Shown: piece by piece, positions 6,340 to 40,725 of the stretch
Layout: every line of letters starts with the position of its first letter
How positions within the stretch are numbered: position 1 is the stretch's first letter
NCBI RefSeq assembly: GCF_003054025.1
Contig: NZ_QBKG01000001.1
Span: forward strand, 248,001-312,000
DNA length: 64,000 nt
From: Capnocytophaga leadbetteri
Lineage (GTDB): Bacteria > Bacteroidota > Bacteroidia > Flavobacteriales > Flavobacteriaceae
Direction: 5' to 3'
Notes under the pieces: model-generated
Databases searched by the model: none
The model's input: the letters and a program-made list of their open reading frames with translations, nothing else
Told to the model about the DNA's origin: nothing
Position numbers and translations under genes: made by a program

Positions 6340-9300
6340 ATGAAGGTAAAAATATCAATGTTGCTATTCGTTTTTGCGCTATTTAGTAGTGCACTATTTG
6401 CGCAAACGAAAGTATCTGTGACAGGTACAGTTACAGGTAACGATGGATTACCCCTTCCTGGGGTAAGTGTTGTCATTAAAGGTACAACACGTGGTGTTTC
6501 AACTGACTTTGACGGGAAGTACGAAATTCAAGCTGCCGGCAATGAGGTACTTGAATTTAGTTCGTTAGGCTACACTTCGCAGTCAAAAAAAGTTGATAAG
6601 TCAAGTGGTAAACTTACTTTAAACGTTGTTTTGAAGGAAGAAGCCCAACAGCTTGGTGAGGTAGTAGTAACTGCCCTTGGTATCAAGCGTGAGCAAAAGG
6701 CGTTGAGCTACAACGTACAACAGGTAAAATCAGAAGAACTTACCAAAGTGAAAGATGTGAACGTAGTGAATAGCCTTAATGGTAAAGTAGCAGGGGTAAA
6801 TATCCAACGCAGCTCAGCTGGGGTTGGTGGTGCTACTAAAGTGGTAATGCGTGGTCTTAAGTCAATTGATGGTAACAACGGTGTGTTATACGTGATTGAT
6901 GGGGTGCCATTGTATAACAAACAAAATGACTCAGCAGGTGCAATGAGCCGTCCTGGTGGAGGTGAAGGTATCGCAGACTTCAACCCAGAGGATATTGAAA
7001 GTATCAACGTACTAACAGGTCCTTCAGCTGCTGCTCTTTATGGTAGTGAGGCTGCTAACGGGGTTATCCTTATCAACACCAAAAAAGGTAAGGAAGGAAA
7101 AACAGAGGTTAGTATCTCAAGTAGTATAGAGGTGATGACCCCTATAATGCTACCTGAGTTTCAAAATACTTATGGAAGTATAGGAGATAAGAGTTGGGGG
7201 GCTAAATTAGCTACACCTTCTACATTTGAGCCTCGCAAGTTCTTCAATACTGGTACTAATATGATGAACTCTGTGACTTTCTCAACCGGTAATGTACAAA
7301 ACCAAACTTTTGTATCGGCTGCTCAAACTGAAGCAGAAGGTCTTATTCCTAATAACGCTTACTATCGTTATAATGTAGGGGTACGCAATACTGCTAAATT
7401 TGCAAAAGAAAAGCTACACTTAGATGTAAGTGGTAACTTTATCCGTCAAGGGAACCGTAATATGATAGCAGGTGGTGGTTACTTTAACCCATTAGTAGGT
7501 TTATACTTGATGCCTCGTAGTTTAGACTACAGAGATGTAGAAGCTTACGAACGTTATAACCCAGCACGTGGCATCTATGAAAAATACCAACCTTATTCAG
7601 AACAAGCAGATAGTTACTTCTCTGAAAACCCTTATTGGGTAGCTAATCGTGAGTTATTCTTAAACAACAAAAAACGTTATATGATGTCAGCTTCATTAAA
7701 ATACGAAATCTTAAGCTGGTTAAACATCTCAGGACGTGTACGTTTGGATAACGACTATGGTACAAAAGAAGAAAAATTATATGCAAGTACTACTAACTTC
7801 TTAGTAGGATGGAAACCAGAGTTTGGTCCTCACGACAAAGGTTATTACAGTGTTGGCAACTCAAAAGATGAGCAAACATATGCAGATATTATGCTCAATA
7901 TGAACAAAAACTTTGGTGAAGATTTCTCACTTACTGCTAACTTAGGTTCAAGCTACAACGATCGTTACAGCACAAGTTTATCAGCAGGAGGTTATCTTTT
8001 CCGTTTGCCTAACCTGTTTTCAGCCGCAAACTTCGATCCACAAATAGGAGGTTCAGGACAAGGTTATTCACGAGCTAAGAATGTAGCTGTTTTCGGTAGT
8101 GCAGAGCTTGGCTACAAAGGAATGCTTTACCTTTCTGTTACAGGCCGTAATGACTGGTCATCACAGCTAGTAAACTCAGCAGAGCCTTCTTTCTTCTATC
8201 CATCAGTAGGACTTTCAGGAGTTATTTCGCAAATGGTAAAACTACCACAATTTATTAACTATTTGAAAGTACGTGGTTCATATACCGAAGTAGGTTCGCC
8301 TATTAGCAAAACAGGTATCACTCCTGGTACTATTACCCATAATCTGACTTCTTCAGGCCTAACCACCAACAAGGTATATCCTTATCCAGAATTTAAAGCA
8401 GAACGTACTGCCTCTTGGGAAGCAGGTCTGAATACAAAACTTTTTGATAATACTTTGTCTGTTGATTTGACTTTGTATAAATCAAATACTTTCAACCAAT
8501 TCTTTGAACAAGAGTTATCTTCTTCATCTATTTACTCATCATTCTATTTGCAAGCAGGTAATGTAGAAAACCGTGGGGTAGAACTATCAGTAAACTATAA
8601 TAAAGAGTTCTTTAACAAAGAATTGAATTGGAATTCTACTCTTACTTATTCTCGTAACGTGAATGAGATAAAAGAACTTGTACGCGGTTATCGCAATCCA
8701 TTTACAGGACAATTATTTGATATTACAGAAGTGCGCAAAGGTAGCACCGTATTGCGCGAAGGTGGTAGTATGTCTGATATAACAGTAAGAGGTGTTTTAT
8801 CTCGCAATAAAAATGGCGAACTTATAGAAGAAGCAGCTCAGTACCAATATGATCAAACACAAGAAATAAAATTAGGACGTTCAACCCCAGATTTCCAAAT
8901 GGGATGGAGAAATACATTGTCTTTCAGAAATATAGACTTTAGTTTCTTGTTCAATGGTAGTTTTGGTGGTATTGTACTTTCTGGTACACAGCCTTACCTT
9001 GATGCTTATGGTGTATCAAAAGCTTCAGCTGAAGCACGCGATGCTGGAGGGGTAATGGTAAATGGCAAGTTATATGATGCTCAAAAGTATTATAACACCA
9101 TTAAAAAACTTCCTGGTTACTACTCTTATGACGCTACTAATGTACGTTTACAAGAAGTATCACTTTCTTATTCATTAGATGGTAAACACTTTTGCGATAA
9201 AGTAAAAAGAGTAACTCTTGGAGTTATCGGTACTAACCTTTGGATGATATATAACAAAGCTCCTTTTGACCCACAACTTACTTTTGGTGTAGGTACTTAT

Positions 9301-33169: not shown

Positions 33170-33907
33170 TTATTTCAGCCAATCATAGCCTTTTGCTTCC
33201 AATTCTAAGGCGAGGCTTTTATCGCCTGTTTTTACGATTTTACCGTCAGAAAGCACGTGTACATAATCAGGGACGATATAGTCTAAAAGGCGCTGGTAGT
33301 GGGTAATCACAAGCACAGCGTTGTTTTCATTTTTGAGTTTGTTTACCCCATTGGCCACAATGCGGAGGGCATCGATGTCGAGTCCTGAGTCGGTTTCGTC
33401 AAGAATAGCTACTTTAGGCTCGAGCATTGCCATTTGGAAGATTTCGTTGCGTTTCTTCTCACCGCCTGAAAACCCTTGATTGAGAGAGCGCGAAAGAAAA
33501 TCAGGATTGATTTCTAAAAGGGCTGCTTTCTCGCGTATTTTTTTGAGGAGCTCGGCAGCAGGCATATCGGGCAGTCCTTGTGCTTTGCGACTCTCATTGA
33601 TAGCTGTTTTGATAAAGTTAGTTACCGATATACCAGGGATTTCTACAGGATATTGAAAAGACATAAAGATACCTTTATGAGCGCGCTCTTCAGGGGCATC
33701 TTCTAACAGACTCTCACCATTGAGCAGTATATCACCCTCTGTTACCTCGAAGTTTTCGTTGCCTGAAATTACCGAAGAGAGCGTTGATTTGCCCGCCCCA
33801 TTCGGTCCCATAATGGCGTGCACTTCACCAGCTTTTATTTCTAAGTCAATCCCCTTAAGGATTTCTTTGCCATCCACACCAGCGTGGAGATTTTTTATTA
33901 TTAACAT
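33170..33907 (-). CDS. sufC: Fe-S cluster assembly ATPase SufC
   Basis: ABC-type ATPase of the SufBCD complex. 245 residues with every ABC motif: Walker A GPNGAGKST (about 35-43), Q-loop FMSFQYPVEIPG, the SufC-style signature SGGEKKRNE (about 149-157), Walker B AILDETDSGLD and switch His in VITHYQRLLDY. Upstream, 78 bp away in the same direction, is the DUF262-HEPN cassette where sufB would be expected. Confidence 0.96.
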   Translation of the reverse strand: MLIIKNLHAGVDGKEILKGIDLEIKAGEVHAIMGPNGAGKSTLSSVISGNENFEVTEGDILLNGESLLEDAPEERAHKGIFMSFQYPVEIPGISVTNFIKTAINESRKAQGLPDMPAAELLKKIREKAALLEINPDFLSRSLNQGFSGGEKKRNEIFQMAMLEPKVAILDETDSGLDIDALRIVANGVNKLKNENNAVLVITHYQRLLDYIVPDYVHVLSDGKIVKTGDKSLALELEAKGYDWLK

Positions 33908-33985
33908 TTTAATTGAGTTTATAATTTATTGAATTTTTTAAAGTATTCATCTATTTTATCGTGAAACCAAAAGATAATTTCTTTG

Positions 33986-34570
33986 TTAATTATTAGCTGA
34001 AGAGTTAGTAACTTCATTTGTGTTTAATAATTCTTCAATTTTAGGTATGAATCCTTTTGCTGCTATATATAGGTTATATATTTCTTCTGGAGTTTTATTA
34101 TCATAAGAATATGAAGCAAAATCACTATGAGCTAATATGTTCCTAATATGTCCTATCTCTAAAAAAGCATTTTTACTTGTGTCAAAATTAGTATTTTCAT
34201 TTATAATAGAAGTTACTTTTGTTTTAAAGCCTTCACCAAATAGACTCAAAAAAGAATTGATGCTTTTTCCAGGTTTATTAGGATCATCCTTTTCGCCCCA
34301 ACTAAATAATGTGTGGTATCTTAAGTTAATAGCTTGTTTTTCTAAGAAACTAACTAATTCTTTATTATTATTAGTGACATTTATTACATATCTTTTAAGC
34401 ATTTCAGTCATCTCTTTTTCAAAAAAACTTGCACAAGATAATAACAACACTTTTCGGATAGTTTTGTTGTAATCACTTAAAGAAGAAATTTCCTGCCTAC
34501 TCATCAATATATCTCGAATAGCAGAAATTTCATCCCATAATATATCAACTGAGGTCTTGTTCTCTTCCAT
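33986..34570 (-). CDS. HEPN domain protein (RiboL-PSP/MAE_28990-like), putative RNase
   Basis: 194-residue all-helical protein with the HEPN motif R-N-x-x-x-H intact at Arg143-Asn144 to His148 (HIRNILAHSDF), the catalytic pattern of HEPN RNases. The N-terminal SFFEKEMTEML helix is usual for RiboL-PSP-HEPN proteins, many of which occur beside DUF262 genes. It starts 26 bp inside the DUF262 gene, implying coupled translation and a joint complex. AT-rich, unlike sufC downstream. Likely the RNA-cutting effector of a defence or abortive-infection module; not proven. Confidence 0.85.
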   Translation of the reverse strand: MEENKTSVDILWDEISAIRDILMSRQEISSLSDYNKTIRKVLLLSCASFFEKEMTEMLKRYVINVTNNNKELVSFLEKQAINLRYHTLFSWGEKDDPNKPGKSINSFLSLFGEGFKTKVTSIINENTNFDTSKNAFLEIGHIRNILAHSDFASYSYDNKTPEEIYNLYIAAKGFIPKIEELLNTNEVTNSSANN

Positions 34571-35756
34571 TACCTAATAATATTCTTTTAGCAATTTCAC
34601 TTCTTTTTTGTGTGTTATCTACACTTGTAGTTCTTTGAGAATATGCCTTTATAAACTCTTCATCTTTTTTTAAAGAGTCTATTTTTGCTTTCTCTGTATG
34701 TGAAATTTTAGAAGCATCCTTTTCTTTATAGGCGTTTTCACATAAAGTAGTAAAAACAGCTTCATAGACAGAAATATTAAATCTGTTGTTGCTTGTCCAA
34801 AAGATTTTACTATCTCCCAAAGAATTTATATGTGAAATAAAATGGTTAAAAATACTTTCTAACAATTCATTTTCTTCGTCACTATTTCCTTTTGCTTTAA
34901 AAGAAAAAACATTTAAGAATTTTGTCATACTTGGTTTATAGTTTTCTCTATCTATAAGCATTGCAAAACCACGTAAAAGTATTTCAACCTCCTTCATATT
35001 AATATCTAGAGTTTTTGTTGATAACAAATTCCTCCACTCATCTTTCATATTCAACTTATACAATGATTCATAGAAGTTAGAATGATACAGACTTGTTCTT
35101 ATTTCTTGAGGCTTTAAATTAACGCCTCCTGTATTAAGTCTATTGAAAATTTCAAAAACTACATTCTTACCCTCTTCGCCAGAAGCTGATGATTTAATTA
35201 TCATGAGTCGAATTGTTTTTAGATTAAAAGAGGTTTTATCTAAATCTTCTAATGTTGAATAATTTTTCTCATTAAATTTATTAGATTTATTAGGAATCTG
35301 TTCGGGTAAATCTAGTTTGAAATCTGTAAAATAGTCATTGTTCGATAGTATATTGTCAGGAATACTTCCTTTCTCATCAAATATTTTTCTCAACTCAATG
35401 CGTTTTTTCATTATAGGAAATCTTTTTTTAATAAAATAGTAAATAGTCATTAATCTTTGTTGTCCATCGATAACTAAAAAACTATTTTTCTCTTCCTCAA
35501 AAAGAAATATTTGAGGTATAGGAATTCCTATCAAAAGAGATTCAATTAATTTAGAAGCTCTTTTAATATCCCAAACATAGTTTCTTTGAAAGCCAGGGAT
35601 TTTAATAACTCCTGACTCCATAAAATCAAAGATAGTTTTTACATTAAAATCATTAGGTGAGGCAGAAATATTATACTCTGCTATTGAAGATGAATTATTT
35701 TCTAATTCATCTTGCTCATAATCTCCATCGAAAATGGGTTCATTATATTCACTCAT
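34545..35756 (-). CDS. DUF262 (GmrSD N-terminal-type) protein
   Basis: 403 residues from the ATG at 35756; a Met nine codons upstream overlaps the preceding gene and is less likely. DUF262 core: IPGFQRNYVWD (about 53-63), the ParB/Srx-like nucleotide-binding motif IDGQQRLMTIYYF (D97-R101) and FEIFNRLNTGGVNLKPQEIR (about 202-220). DUF262 proteins supply the NTP-sensing half of GmrSD-type restriction enzymes and related phage defence. The DUF1524 HNH nuclease domain is absent; here the partner is the HEPN protein. High AT content suggests transfer. Confidence 0.9.
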   Translation of the reverse strand: MSEYNEPIFDGDYEQDELENNSSSIAEYNISASPNDFNVKTIFDFMESGVIKIPGFQRNYVWDIKRASKLIESLLIGIPIPQIFLFEEEKNSFLVIDGQQRLMTIYYFIKKRFPIMKKRIELRKIFDEKGSIPDNILSNNDYFTDFKLDLPEQIPNKSNKFNEKNYSTLEDLDKTSFNLKTIRLMIIKSSASGEEGKNVVFEIFNRLNTGGVNLKPQEIRTSLYHSNFYESLYKLNMKDEWRNLLSTKTLDINMKEVEILLRGFAMLIDRENYKPSMTKFLNVFSFKAKGNSDEENELLESIFNHFISHINSLGDSKIFWTSNNRFNISVYEAVFTTLCENAYKEKDASKISHTEKAKIDSLKKDEEFIKAYSQRTTSVDNTQKRSEIAKRILLGNGREQDLS

Positions 35757-35763
35757 TATTCTT

Positions 35764-35961
35764 TTATTTTTGTAGTTCACCAAAGTTTATTTCCTCAAAA
35801 ATAGTATTATACACCATATCTATCCCTTCACATAATCCCCATTCTAACCTGTCTTTTACTAACTGAAGCTCTTCATCAGTAAGTCTTCTGCCTAATTTCT
35901 CTTCAGCCCAATATTGAGTGTCTCCTATAGTTATGAGAAATAATGGTTTATCTTCTTCCAT
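35764..35961 (-). CDS. Small acidic protein (65 aa) heading the DUF262-HEPN cassette
   Basis: Unrecognised small protein with an amphipathic C-terminal half (LTDEELQLVKDRLEWGLCEGIDMVYNTIF begins near residue 27). The ATG at 35961 is used; the next Met upstream lies in the presumed promoter. It ends 7 bp before the DUF262 start, so it is probably in the same transcript and may be a regulator or antitoxin-like partner. That role is inference: it might instead be an ordinary gene next to which the cassette landed. Confidence 0.6.
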   Translation of the reverse strand: MEEDKPLFLITIGDTQYWAEEKLGRRLTDEELQLVKDRLEWGLCEGIDMVYNTIFEEINFGELQK

Positions 35962-35979
35962 AACTTTAATTTTAGGGTG

Positions 35980-36010
35980 CAAAGGTCGGATATTATTTTG
36001 AATTATACAA
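35980..36010 (-). promoter_or_regulatory. Possible promoter of the DUF262-HEPN cassette
   Basis: On the minus strand TTTG lies 20 bp upstream of GACCTTTG (complement at 35980-35987), one mismatch from TAnnTTTG. It is 19 bp before the 65-aa start. Confidence 0.5.
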
Positions 36011-36028
36011 ATTTAGGTGTTAGTCGTT

Positions 36029-36072
36029 AGTCTTTAGTCGTTAGAAGGGGTACTAACTAACTACTAAAGACT
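36029..36072. terminator. Long hairpin at the M1 peptidase 3' end
   Basis: AGTCTTTAGT-C-GTTAG (36029-36044) pairs with CTAAC-T-ACTAAAGACT (36057-36072), 15 bp with one mismatch. It separates the peptidase from the DUF262 cassette and is built of GTTAG-type repeats. Confidence 0.65.
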
Positions 36073-36095
36073 GATAACTAACTACTAATAATTAA

Positions 36096-37955
36096 TTACT
36101 TACTAAAACTATTGTTTTCTTTGTCTGTATCTACGCTTTTGTTTTCGGGGTCGAGGGCGATGCTCTTTATGTCTTCTAAAGGCATATCAAGTGTAAAGGT
36201 GTAAGTAGGATTGCCCCAGCCCCAAGCGGGTAATACGGTACGCGGATACGCTGGATAGGTGTTTGGCTTCTCGGCATAAGTCATTCGCAAAGGTACGTAT
36301 ACATAGCGTATGTTGTCTGCCTTGTCAGTTACCCAAAGGTCGATAGAAAGTGGCAGTCTGCCTACGCGTTTAAGGGTTACTTCTGTTTTATTGCCTTTGC
36401 CCTCTACCTTGCTGATAGCATAGTCGGCAGTATGGTCAGTCTCCATAAATTCGTTGAGGAACCACTGTAGCTGCATACCCGATACTTTTTCGGCTATACG
36501 TATAAAATCATTAGGCGTTGGGTTCTTGAAAGCGTACTCGTTGTAATAACGTTTCAGTGTTTTCTGTAGCGCCTCATTGCCCATTAGGTAATCTAACTGA
36601 GTAAGGAATAACAGCCCCTTGTAGTAAGCCGTTACTGAGTAAGCGTAGTTAGTTGCAAAACGGTCAGAGTGAGTGATAGTAGGCTCTTGAAAACCTGATT
36701 TTACTAACCCGAAATATCCCTTATAAGCACTTTCGAATGGGTTAGCCGTCTTTTTGGTTTTTAGGATTTGATGCTCGGCAAGGTATTCTATATACGAGGT
36801 AAAACCTTCGTCCATCCAAGGATAAGCAGCCTCATCGGTGGCGAGTAGGTGCTGAAACCACGCGTGCGCGAGTTCATGTGCTGCGGTGCCTACTAAGCGT
36901 TCGTACTTTTCGCCTCCTACCATAAGGGTACACATAGCGTATTCCATACCGCCATCACCCCCTTGAATAAATGAATACTGAGGCCAAGGGTATTTGCCTA
37001 CCAGTTGGTTGTAATAGTCGAAAACCTTAAGCATTGGCTCTTGTATCTGTTTCCAAGTGTCTTTGTACTTTTTGTAGATAAAGTGAATGGTCTTGCCGTC
37101 AGCCAGTTGGTGCTTATCGTGTATGTACTGAGGGTCAGCTGCCCAAGTGAAATCGTGCACGCGCTCTGCGATAAAGTGCCACGTTTTGGTAGCCGACTTG
37201 GTAGTAGGTACTTTCACGCCCTTATCTTCATAGCCAAAACCTATTTCGTTAGGATTTTGCAGTACCCCTGAAGCGCCTACAAGGTAAGTCTTATCGAGGG
37301 TGATTTTCACATCGAAGTTACCCCATACGCCGTAAAACTCACGACCTAAGTACTCGGTGGTATGCCAACCTTTGTGGTCGTAAGCTACCATTTTAGGGTA
37401 CCATTGCGCCATAGAGAGGGCTACTCCATCAGGACTGTTGCGCCCTGCACGGCGAATCATTACCGGCACTTGTCCTTCAAAATCTAAACCTAATACCGTA
37501 CGGCTATGCGGTAGTATCGGGTTAGGCAGGGTAACTTTTAGTATAGTACTTTCGTGCGATATAGTAGCGGGGACACCGTCTTGGGTGAGCTTTTTCACGC
37601 GTAGGTAGCCAATTTCATCGGGGGTGAGTTTAGCAATTCTGCTTTCGTATATAGGGCGTTGGGGGGTACCTACGTTAGTCGCCATACGTCCGTCGGGGTC
37701 GGGTAGGGTTTGCAGGTTAGCGTCCATTTCGCTGTTGGGTTGGAAAGCGTTGAAGTAAAGGTGAAAAAACACCGTAGTAAGGGTGTCGGGTGAGTTGTTG
37801 ATATAGGTAACTTTCTGTACGCCTTTGTACTGAAAGTTTTTGACGTTCATCGTTACGTTCATCTGGTAGTCAGCCTGTTGCTGCCAATGATTATCTTGCG
37901 CTTGAGCCGAAAGAGCGAGCGCTAAGCCGCAAATAGCGAGGATACTTTTCTTCAT
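36096..37955 (-). CDS. M1 family metallopeptidase (aminopeptidase)
   Basis: Secreted zinc aminopeptidase of the gluzincin M1 family, 619 residues. Signal peptide (1-19, LALSAQAQ). Zinc site HELAH at His360, Glu361, His364 with the third ligand Glu383 in PWMDEGF, exact HExxHx18E spacing. The exopeptidase motif usually written GAMEN is represented by GGDGGMEYAM (about 333), as in the Bacteroidota branch of the family. The N-terminal beta domain (25-240) and C-terminal helices are present. Own promoter, own 3' hairpin. Confidence 0.93.
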   Translation of the reverse strand: MKKSILAICGLALALSAQAQDNHWQQQADYQMNVTMNVKNFQYKGVQKVTYINNSPDTLTTVFFHLYFNAFQPNSEMDANLQTLPDPDGRMATNVGTPQRPIYESRIAKLTPDEIGYLRVKKLTQDGVPATISHESTILKVTLPNPILPHSRTVLGLDFEGQVPVMIRRAGRNSPDGVALSMAQWYPKMVAYDHKGWHTTEYLGREFYGVWGNFDVKITLDKTYLVGASGVLQNPNEIGFGYEDKGVKVPTTKSATKTWHFIAERVHDFTWAADPQYIHDKHQLADGKTIHFIYKKYKDTWKQIQEPMLKVFDYYNQLVGKYPWPQYSFIQGGDGGMEYAMCTLMVGGEKYERLVGTAAHELAHAWFQHLLATDEAAYPWMDEGFTSYIEYLAEHQILKTKKTANPFESAYKGYFGLVKSGFQEPTITHSDRFATNYAYSVTAYYKGLLFLTQLDYLMGNEALQKTLKRYYNEYAFKNPTPNDFIRIAEKVSGMQLQWFLNEFMETDHTADYAISKVEGKGNKTEVTLKRVGRLPLSIDLWVTDKADNIRYVYVPLRMTYAEKPNTYPAYPRTVLPAWGWGNPTYTFTLDMPLEDIKSIALDPENKSVDTDKENNSFSK

Positions 37956-38978: not shown

Positions 38979-39009
38979 TAAAGGTACGACTTATTTTTAT
39001 AACTTCCAA
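38979..39009 (-). promoter_or_regulatory. Promoter of the UspA gene
   Basis: Minus strand: TTG (complement 39007-39009), 20 bp, TACCTTTA (complement 38979-38986), one mismatch in the last base of the -7 box. Confidence 0.6.
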
Positions 39010-39084
39010 ATTTTTTCTAATTTATTTTTTTCTATTCTTTTGGTAATTGATAGATATTTGTACTTCGGCTGTTTTTTTGTTTAT

Positions 39085-39147
39085 CCTATATCGTTCCTAT
39101 ATCGTTCCTGTATCGTTTGTATATAGGAGGTAAAGGGGAGGGGGCTA
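39085..39147. repeat. Three 11-bp direct repeats plus purine-rich tail, copy 1
   Basis: CCTATATCGTT at 39085-39095 and 39096-39106, CCTGTATCGTT at 39107-39117, then a TATAGGAGGTAAAGGGGAG-type tail. A second copy lies at 59906-59964. The rest of the 413-bp gap holds the two divergent promoters and a 14-codon ORF (39243-39287) that I do not call a gene. Confidence 0.85.
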
Positions 39148-39180
39148 TAGTATGTTTTTCTGCTTTTTGTGGGAAAGAGA

Positions 39181-39193
39181 AAATAAAAAGTTT
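39181..39193. repeat. 13-bp direct repeat flanking the SH3 gene, left copy
   Basis: AAATAAAAAGTTT, identical to 40298-40310. It is directly followed by TTGAGGTGTCAA (39192-39203), also repeated at 40260-40271. Confidence 0.7.
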
Positions 39194-39221
39194 GAGGTGT
39201 CAAAGTATTTTCATATATTTG
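39191..39221 (+). promoter_or_regulatory. Promoter upstream of the SH3-domain gene
   Basis: TTTG at 39191-39194 and TATATTTG at 39214-39221, 19-bp spacer. The start codon is 138 bp further on, so the leader is long. Confidence 0.7.
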
Positions 39222-39359
39222 CACTCTGAAAATTAATGTATTATGGAATTATTTAAGGGACAAAGCCTCTTAAAAATACTGGGATAATGTGAAAATAATT
39301 CTTGAAGAAAGAGAAGTAGAAGAATCTAATTGGAATAACAAAAATATAGGAGAAACAAA

Positions 39360-40259
39360 ATGGACTGGAAAATTATAATACTTTTTTTAATAGTAACTTT
39401 TAATAGCTATAGTCAAAAGATAGAAGATTATACAATTTTTAAAGACGGCGAAGTTTATATTAACTTCCGTAGATACATACAAAAAATGATGCCTCAGATA
39501 GATGCTGAATTAGAAAAATACAGCTATAAAAAACCTACTGAGGAGCACTATAAGAAAGTAATACACTCTTTTATCAATAAAGATCTACTACCGCAAAATA
39601 TAGTGGTGTTGAATGATGATCTCAATCCATACATTGCTATCCAAGATAAGAGAATCATATATACAGAAGGAGATGAAGTAGATGTAGATGGACTTATATT
39701 ATTTCACCTTAATCAGTATCTCTTCTATAAAGACCTAAAGTCCTTAGAATGGCTAAAAGATAATCATGCAGATATGTTATCAAATTTTGTAGTTACTTTT
39801 GGTGTTTATAGAGATAAAACACTACTAAAATGGTATCTTGATGAAAATATTAATAATGAAACTGGCATACAGGTGTTATTTTATTATCGGAAGAATACGC
39901 GCGAATTTATAAGAAAAGAGATGGTGTTAGCGGTCGATAAAATGTTACGAGGGACTCCTAACGAACACGATTTTGCTATTAATGCAGCGAAATACTATGT
40001 TCAAAGATATTCTCACGACTTCGATAACCCCAAGGAAATAATTGATTTCTTATTTAATTCTTCAAGAGGTTATTATATAGAAGATCCTGATGGATACTCT
40101 AATATAAGGGCGGATAAGAGTACTTCTTCTAAAATTTTAGGTAAAGTAAAATCAGGCGAAAAAATAGATGTATTAGATGATACAAGCAATTGGTATCTGA
40201 TAAAAACTAAAGAAGGATTAAAAGGATATGTACACAAAAGTAGAATAAAAATTAAATAA
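39360..40259 (+). CDS. Secreted SH3-domain protein
   Basis: 299 residues with a signal peptide (about 1-19, LIVTFNSYSQ). Residues 20-235 are an unrecognised, largely helical region (KWYLDENINNETGIQVLFYYRKNTREF). The C-terminus (about 240-299) is a bacterial SH3 domain: GYSNIRADKSTSSKILGKVKSG, then WYLIKTKEGLKGYVHKSRI, usually a peptidoglycan-binding module. The gene is AT-rich and flanked by short direct repeats, which may mark an insertion. Confidence 0.8.
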   Translation: MDWKIIILFLIVTFNSYSQKIEDYTIFKDGEVYINFRRYIQKMMPQIDAELEKYSYKKPTEEHYKKVIHSFINKDLLPQNIVVLNDDLNPYIAIQDKRIIYTEGDEVDVDGLILFHLNQYLFYKDLKSLEWLKDNHADMLSNFVVTFGVYRDKTLLKWYLDENINNETGIQVLFYYRKNTREFIRKEMVLAVDKMLRGTPNEHDFAINAAKYYVQRYSHDFDNPKEIIDFLFNSSRGYYIEDPDGYSNIRADKSTSSKILGKVKSGEKIDVLDDTSNWYLIKTKEGLKGYVHKSRIKIK

Positions 40260-40299
40260 TTGAGGTGTCAATTAGTATGTAGCTAAATAGACACCTCAA
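40260..40299 (+). terminator. Hairpin after the SH3 gene
   Basis: TTGAGGTGTC (40260-40269) pairs with GACACCTCAA (40290-40299). An A-rich tract follows on the plus strand. Confidence 0.6.
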
Positions 40300-40310
40300 A
40301 TAAAAAGTTT
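40298..40310. repeat. 13-bp direct repeat flanking the SH3 gene, right copy
   Basis: AAATAAAAAGTTT, as at 39181-39193. It forms the upstream edge of the next promoter, as the left copy does for the SH3 promoter. Confidence 0.7.
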
Positions 40311-40340
40311 TGTGTGTTTCAAAAAAAAGTAGTACTTTTG
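40309..40340 (+). promoter_or_regulatory. Plus-strand promoter of the non-coding locus
   Basis: TTTG at 40309-40312 and TACTTTTG at 40333-40340, 20-bp spacer. No protein gene follows for 390 bp. Confidence 0.7.
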
Positions 40341-40360
40341 CAGCGATATAAAAAAGAGAA

Positions 40361-40392
40361 AGGCAGCAAGAAGTTGGGAGCTCCTGCTGCCT
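40361..40392 (-). terminator. Possible minus-strand terminator of the small-ORF transcript
   Basis: AGGCAGCA/TGCTGCCT hairpin; on the minus strand it is followed by a T-rich tract (complement of 40350-40360). It would end a transcript begun at 40558. Confidence 0.45.
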
Positions 40393-40397
40393 GCCCG

Positions 40398-40487
40398 TTA
40401 ATATCTGATTTTAAATAAGAATTTCTTTTTAGAAATCTGTATTAAGATAAAAACGGGTTTGAATCTAAATCGTATCTTTAAATTCAT
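40398..40487 (-). CDS. Candidate small ORF (29 aa), basic and hydrophobic
   Basis: ATG at 40487 preceded by GAGGAAAG, a good ribosome-binding site for this AT-rich context; stop at 40398. The peptide has a basic N-terminus (MNLKIRFRFK), a hydrophobic centre (PVFILIQI) and a basic/aromatic end (KKKFLFKIRY), resembling small membrane-active type I toxins. It lies between a minus-strand promoter (40558-40589) and a hairpin with T-rich tail, and wholly within the opposite-strand RNA. Too short to be sure it is translated. Confidence 0.35.
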   Translation of the reverse strand: MNLKIRFRFKPVFILIQISKKKFLFKIRY

Positions 40488-40557
40488 ACTTTCCTCTTTA
40501 TTTATCACAAAACACCTGCCCGTTTTGCATAGGCACCTTTGACTTTCAAAGGTGTTG

Positions 40558-40589
40558 CAAAAGTAAGGGATGCTAATGATTTTAGCAAA
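40558..40589 (-). promoter_or_regulatory. Minus-strand promoter facing the non-coding locus
   Basis: On the minus strand TTTG (complement 40586-40589), 20 bp, TACTTTTG (complement 40558-40565). It points into the plus-strand RNA, creating overlapping convergent transcripts. Confidence 0.6.
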
Positions 40590-40609
40590 ATTTTAACATT
40601 AGAAATTAG

Positions 40610-40639
40610 GGTTGCTTACTGTTGTGAGCAACCTTTTTT
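40610..40639 (+). terminator. Strong intrinsic terminator upstream of rimP
   Basis: GGTTGCTTAC (40610-40619), loop TGTT, GTGAGCAACC (40624-40633), then six T. It ends the non-coding transcript and insulates the rimP promoter. Confidence 0.9.
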
Positions 40640-40649
40640 CTGTTTTTTC

Positions 40650-40679
40650 TTGTTATTTCAAAAAAACTTCGTATCTTTG
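40650..40679 (+). promoter_or_regulatory. Promoter of rimP-nusA-infB
   Basis: TTG at 40650-40652 and TATCTTTG at 40672-40679, 19-bp spacer. Predicted start of transcription near 40686. Confidence 0.75.
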
Positions 40680-40698
40680 CACCGAATTTTAACTGTTG

Positions 40699-40725
40699 GA
40701 GGGGACGTTTGAGTCCCCTCTTTTT
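40699..40725 (+). promoter_or_regulatory. Leader terminator hairpin (attenuator) of rimP-nusA-infB
   Basis: GAGGGGAC (40699-40706), loop GTTTGA, GTCCCCTC (40713-40720), then TTTTT. It fills most of the 46-nt leader and ends 8 bp before the rimP start codon, so it would end most transcripts or mask the start region. NusA, encoded by this operon, stimulates such terminators, so autoregulation is likely. Confidence 0.75.

Follow-up and report, generated by a model that had tools for sequence, protein, structure and literature searches.

The question raised by this locus, part of a 64,000-nt window of the Capnocytophaga leadbetteri genome (contig NZ_QBKG01000001.1, positions 248,001 to 312,000), is what a gene for a DUF262 protein and an overlapping gene for a HEPN protein do together between sufC and a small gene encoding a 65-aa protein. 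An earlier interpretation made from the letters of this DNA (hereafter the sequence-only reading) had proposed a phage-defence module with the 65-aa protein as a partner. Computation across genomes, viral contigs and plasmids found the DUF262 and HEPN genes to be a genuine two-gene unit, conserved across many phyla, present in phages and plasmids, and located here at a site shared with defence genes in relatives. The reading we lean towards is that of a mobile two-gene anti-phage cassette, composed of a DUF262 sensor and a HEPN RNase effector, and the pair probably protects the cell against viruses.

All genes of the locus lie on the minus strand, in the order 65-aa open reading frame (ORF), DUF262, HEPN and sufC (Table 1). 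The DUF262 protein (P0002) is assigned by Pfam to PF03235 GmrSD_N (4.2e-34), has a helical C-terminal half and is the product of a single-copy gene in this genome. The sequence-only reading had described an intact IDGQQR motif without the DUF1524 nuclease. The motif is present, and no Pfam match to DUF1524 or another DNase domain was obtained at E ≤ 1 in the DUF262, HEPN or 65-aa protein. The HEPN protein (P0001) belongs to PF18735 HEPN_RiboL-PSP (3.8e-20). Its RN-x3-H motif, also recognized earlier, is confirmed and has the R-x4-6-H form of the HEPN RNase superfamily; a profile search of the PDB returned no solved HEPN relative.

Scanning genomes with an alignment of six DUF262 sequences gave at least 590 matching stretches, 542 of them confirmed relatives, and the best 80 were retained. 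These loci derive from Bacteroidota, Cyanobacteria, Chloroflexi, Proteobacteria, Actinomycetota, Bacillota, Planctomycetes, one archaeon and others. The two genes proved to be neighbours there as well: a HEPN gene or fragment was recognized by profile beside DUF262 in 75/80 (73 at first and two on closer reading; fragments in L040, L044, L053 and L070), and the gap between the genes is −8 to +15 nt in 59 of 73 loci. Five loci gave no HEPN profile match. In L090 the DUF262 gene is interrupted and a HEPN can be recognized by eye behind it, and L105 contains a 159-aa ORF with R-LSQA-H, also by eye. No HEPN was found in L058, L085 or L097, where the DUF262 gene of L085 is truncated and that of L097 frameshifted. 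The interruption in L090, a Novosphingobium locus (6597-7895), is about 1.3 kb long; a 268-aa ORF begins within it and the HEPN frame follows. The sequence-only reading had taken the overlap of the two genes to imply a joint product. The overlap of 26 bp is real, but the conclusion was overstated: across the loci read, separate ORFs encode two separate proteins, ruling out a fusion or joint product, and the overlap likely points to translational coupling.

Conservation was assessed in three alignments. The DUF262 alignment (A4) joins P0002 to 73 of the 80 loci, omitting L046, L053, L070, L085, L090, L097 and L114 for broken, merged or over-extended frames, and within its 74 sequences D97, G98, Q100 and R101 are invariant. 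The HEPN alignment (A3) joins P0001 to 76 downstream ORFs, omitting L053, L085, L090 and L097; Pfam finds PF18735 in 73 of these 77 proteins, and the catalytic R and H are kept together in 70. The seven exceptions comprise three with K for R, three fragments or wrong frames and one wrongly picked ORF. In a further alignment (A5) of P0001 with 43 HEPNs picked as full-length and close, R, N and H are kept in all 44. Pairwise identities of the two proteins are strongly correlated (r = 0.90; shuffle maximum 0.19) over 70 loci, namely those common to A4 and A3 minus L040, L044 and L058. The correlation is 0.67 (shuffle maximum 0.34) in a closer clade of 47 loci, defined by at least 37% identity to L039 and not to P0002.

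The pair is also carried by mobile DNA. In viral contigs, an alignment scan yielded 213 confirmed relatives, of which 79 loci were retained; single-sequence viral scans with P0002 and the 65-aa protein found nothing. Among viral DUF262 relatives of at least 40% identity, 21 of 22 are accompanied by HEPN and the sole miss has 6 nt of sequence left, although by score these 22 represent about 13 distinct sequences, many near-identical, and L235 is apparently the same contig as genome locus L062. Eleven plasmid and phage regions were read, and all six partners scanned with Pfam are HEPN. Five more phage regions have a following gene on the same strand, near in three, about 200 nt away in L194 and about 180 nt away in L195, where it is annotated as RiboL-PSP-HEPN; none of these five second genes matched PADLOC at 1e-5. 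Plasmids carrying the pair include one of 3.9 kb (L036), and in L035 other toxin-antitoxin genes lie nearby. In Akkermansia phage Chambord (L034 4878-7688), an annotated DNA methyltransferase gene extends into the start of the pair, perhaps making a three-gene version. Within the genus, a HEPN search of 20 genomes found, besides the window's genome, only G166, whose pair (DUF262 65% and HEPN 46-48% identical) occupies a different genomic place.

A cassette-free version of the site is found in the relative G155, in which the orthologous 65-aa gene (68% identity over 59 aa of its product) lies 35 nt before sufC. Homology to G155 ends near 33955 and returns near 35786, and thus the extra DNA amounts to about 1.83 kb, with little beyond the two genes. 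The cassette appears to have inserted at the 3′ terminus of the 65-aa gene, presumably a gain in this genome, with loss in G155 as the alternative. Direct and inverted repeats were sought at its edges, where nothing was readable as element ends. The block is AT-rich, as the sequence-only reading had stated, with 27.3% GC against 40.2% for the whole window; GC is equally low in 3 of 1,244 overlapping windows of 1,830 bp, which may be the cassette's own since it was kept in the comparison. The block looks like an inserted cassette, in support of the earlier claim.

The same site holds other genes elsewhere in the genus. Among 19 relatives, none has DUF262-HEPN before sufC (G161 being readable for about 0.8 kb upstream), and four (G149, G158, G159 and G162) have a DNA methylase and a TdeIII restriction gene there, with an AIPR abortive-infection gene between the two in G149 and G158. 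Judged by gene content, the stretch before sufC is a small defence hotspot whose content is swapped. Just past sufD, G165 and G158 have another, distinct DUF262-like stretch (30% over 111 aa; L174 19234-19566 and L178 14231-14563), which places DUF262 on the far side of the suf genes as well. The proposal that the cassette occupies the normal place of sufB stood in part. The cassette adjoins sufC and sufB is absent there, located in this genome on contig C3, but the insert is not the cause. In 11 of the 19 relatives sufB lies inside the fetched stretch, 0.6 to about 9 kb from sufC; none was seen in the fetched stretches of the five closest by sufC identity (G149, G165, G157, G155 and G023) or of G160, G161 and G163, the first six of which are without sufB over 7.8-15 kb upstream of sufC. 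Because close relatives without the cassette also have a distant sufB, its absence beside sufC is not a footprint of the cassette, and displacement of sufB by the cassette is ruled out.

Matches to defence models also lie near the pair in other genomes. The neighbour test covered 20 of the 28 genomes handled, and its 80 neighbour ORFs, four at each of 20 loci, match 107 PADLOC models at 1e-15 against 8 models for 79 ORFs from control stretches of the same contigs, a count of models and not of genes. The 25 models listed first among the 107 are methylase models throughout, and each has two members that seem to be one and the same pair of proteins. In G238 (L206 384-1998), a DUF262 gene with the motif IDGLQR and a gene with a strong PD-T4-2_B match lie between apparent type I restriction genes (HsdS and HsdR by eye). 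The defence role suggested by the sequence-only reading is supported indirectly and agrees with that of a validated relative, PD-T4-2.

PD-T4-2 protects against T4, with its deletion in ECOR65 raising T4 plaquing (Vassallo et al. 2022, PMC9519451), and combines DUF262 with a PF18735 HEPN (PMC10952713). The window pair shares this layout of two genes, DUF262 directly followed by a PF18735 HEPN, and P0002 matches the PADLOC model PD-T4-2_A over its length (1.3e-38, residues 42-393). This match scores below that to the NsnA model PDLC03877 (3.6e-59, residues 20-393), which is the best PADLOC match of P0002 and of 10/10 other scanned DUF262 relatives; no explanation of the name NsnA was found in papers among the matches listed. 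In contrast, P0001 has no match to the PD-T4-2_B models at E ≤ 1, and the model PDLC04028 weakly matches 10 of the 77 aligned HEPN relatives, with a best value of 7.4e-07. BLASTP of the G238 protein with the strong PD-T4-2_B match against P0001 gave no significant match, and hhalign of that protein against the family profile returned a probability of 1.3 and an E of 0.041, with the R-N...H motifs in register; P0002 and the G238 A protein share 25% identity. The layout and the PD-T4-2_A match agree but PD-T4-2_B fails, and assignment as PD-T4-2 proper was therefore rejected. On these comparisons the window pair is a PD-T4-2 relative, not a confirmed member, and belongs to a distinct, widespread branch of DUF262-HEPN.

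Pairs of DUF262 and RiboL-PSP-HEPN are a kind already described (PMC3710099, PMC9519451, PMC10952713). A single table line of 2013, ‘Ribo L-PSP-HEPN: operon with ParB’ (Anantharaman et al., PMC3710099), fits the window pair, in which the same HEPN family, with catalytic R and H present, stands beside a ParB-fold (DUF262) gene, although the accessible portion of that paper gives the entry without a function test. P0002 resembles GmrSD in its DUF262 domain with DGQQR, but the pair differs from the DUF262-DUF1524 proteins GmrSD, BrxU, SspE and DndI in having a separate HEPN protein instead of DUF1524. The defence systems Menshen and Dazbog likewise contain DUF262 without DUF1524, yet are absent from the HEPN row in the accessible portion of the review that describes them (PMC10952713). 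No characterization of this DUF262-HEPN branch was found in the portions accessible of the open literature, subscription papers and preprints lying outside the search. To our knowledge, no member of this branch has been tested.

The mechanism proposed for the pair follows from the DUF262 biochemistry of GmrSD, BrxU and SspE (PMC10952713) and from the RNase role of the HEPN family (PMC3710099), and its signal, NTPase switch, RNA cleavage and abortive outcome are offered by that analogy. The DUF262 protein would be a GmrSD/BrxU-like sensor that binds nucleoside triphosphates (NTPs), built of DUF262 and helical parts without the DNA-cutting DUF1524, and the HEPN protein from the overlapping reading frame would be its effector in trans. 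A phage signal, perhaps modified phage DNA, would alter the nucleotide state of DUF262, and the altered protein would release the HEPN RNase to cut RNA. This cutting would stop the phage and probably, by growth arrest, the cell too.

Several observations weigh against a mobile anti-phage cassette of this design. Gain of the cassette in this genome, as opposed to loss in G155, is what we infer, and the PADLOC neighbour tally gives a direction and not a rate. Viral DUF262 relatives below 40% identity have a HEPN profile match in 17 of 57 cases. Distant DUF262 matches, none above 34% identity, turn up in 25 of the 148 other family genomes, and no P0001-like HEPN was found at E ≤ 0.001 in any of the 148, those 25 included. 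To the failed PD-T4-2_B match of P0001 may be added the lysine that replaces the HEPN arginine in three divergent relatives. Additionally, alignment of the DUF262 protein to BrxU has a large root-mean-square deviation, because of which the two are firmly comparable in the N-terminal domain only.

One alternative is a toxin-antitoxin pair that persists by maintaining itself, with HEPN as toxin, DUF262 as the antitoxin made first, and no real phage role. The gene order and overlap resemble toxin-antitoxin operons, and the small plasmid and the toxin-antitoxin genes near L035 point the same way. However, antitoxins are usually small, whereas the partner here is a conserved 403-aa protein with a motif invariant in 74 sequences; restriction-modification and AIPR genes at the same site in relatives, and the protection against T4 by the related PD-T4-2, also make this explanation unlikely. 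Another alternative is a modification-dependent restriction of DNA: phage DNA would be the target of DUF262 itself, with HEPN in an accessory, regulatory role, and the outcome would be direct immunity and not RNA-based abortive infection. It draws on the action of GmrSD, BrxU and GrwAB on modified DNA and the sensing of phosphorothioated DNA by SspE (PMC10952713, PMC12137116), on DNA nicking by ParB/Srx proteins (PMC12839542), and on weak PADLOC matches to SspE and REase_II. Given that Pfam found no DUF1524 or other DNase domain and that the HEPN R and H are kept in 70/77, as expected of an active RNase, we hold it to be improbable.

The 65-aa protein was proposed earlier as a regulator and partner of the pair, which would make it a true third component, with the pair since lost from G155. 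It shares the strand of the pair, its stop lies 7 nt before the DUF262 ATG (an upstream TTG at 35783 is an alternative start), and among 19 relatives only G155 has the gene beside sufC without the pair. The promoter-like TAAATTTG, a match to the Bacteroidota −7 box consensus TAnnTTTG, lies 54 nt before the 65-aa ATG and could drive all three genes; transcription of the pair may thus start at the promoter of the 65-aa gene. The coding strand of 33908-36200 contains four other matches. Despite this arrangement, the G155 orthologue stands alone beside sufC and the G166 pair has no 65-aa gene upstream. Across the 80 loci, the 283 small plus-strand ORFs lying just upstream include no relative, and none was found in plasmid and phage collections at E ≤ 0.1, in the 148 other family genomes at E ≤ 0.01 or by an alignment scan, and the protein has no match to Pfam, NCBIfam or PADLOC families. 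The gene was not seen to travel with DUF262-HEPN in the loci compared, and the partnership proposed earlier is not supported. Because G155 has the gene without the pair and G166 the pair without the gene, direct evidence of one genome each way, the 65-aa gene most likely stands on its own as a flanking gene outside the cassette; a three-component system is not favoured and seems very improbable.

The 65-aa protein does have weak relatives (28-34% identity) in three other genomes of the genus, beside restriction-modification genes, a point in favour of a third component. In G152 and G162 they sit between methylase and TdeIII, and in G023 directly before a block of methylase, AIPR-like and TdeIII genes (named by similarity or by eye); of the weak matches of that search, G155, G152 and G162 only were followed. 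Common positions are T11, D14, Q16, L23, R25, L27, T28, E31 and W41. The resulting family of 60-90 aa looks like a small genus protein that recurs near unrelated defence genes.

Table 1. Coordinates of the cassette, its flanks and related stretches (window positions unless a locus is named)
Feature	Position	Strand	Basis or remark
HEPN_RiboL-PSP gene, 194 aa, R143-N144-x3-H148	33986-34570	minus	ORF and Pfam
DUF262 gene (GmrSD_N, ParB/Srx fold), 403 aa, IDGQQR at residues 96-101	34545-35756	minus	
26-bp overlap of DUF262 and HEPN genes	34545-34570	minus	likely translational coupling
Cassette, approximate extent	33955-35785		homology break and return against G155 site; edges ± ~10-15 bp
65-aa ORF, probable independent flanking gene	35764-35961	minus	last codons at insertion point
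sufC, left flank of cassette	33170-33907	minus	
TAAATTTG, TAnnTTTG match	36008-36015	minus	consensus match only
Methylase/TdeIII stretch, G149	L173 3599-7806		
Methylase/TdeIII stretch, G158	L178 7767-11977		
Methylase/TdeIII stretch, G159	L180 7227-10475		
Methylase/TdeIII stretch, G162	L181 3359-5898		
Small 60-90-aa family of the genus	window 35764-35961; L176 4787-4963; L198 1483-1701; L181 4113-4301; L229 5932-6195		

Two other features of the window were observed. An imperfect 32-nt inverted repeat with a 12-nt loop (81% complementary; 36013-36088), built of TTAGT-like repeats, lies in the gap between the peptidase and 65-aa genes. Another AT-rich block (about 28-32% GC) at 39000-40700 contains a 299-aa plus-strand ORF (39360-40259) whose product resembles, by eye, an SH3-type secreted protein.

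A bolder proposal, possible but doubtful, is that the branch is a class separate from PD-T4-2 and the equivalent, for RNA cutting, of type IV restriction. A DNase-less GmrSD-type sensor of modified phage DNA would switch on HEPN in trans, and in this genus the pair would dock beside a 60-90-aa family that may mark or regulate a docking site for defence genes. As a sensor module DUF262 is common, and its signal is understood mainly for the versions that cut DNA; its tight, widespread pairing with HEPN offers a direct way to ask whether the same sensor triggers RNA cutting. The cassette-free site, together with the sharing of this site with TdeIII and AIPR genes, provides a natural comparison for the defence role.
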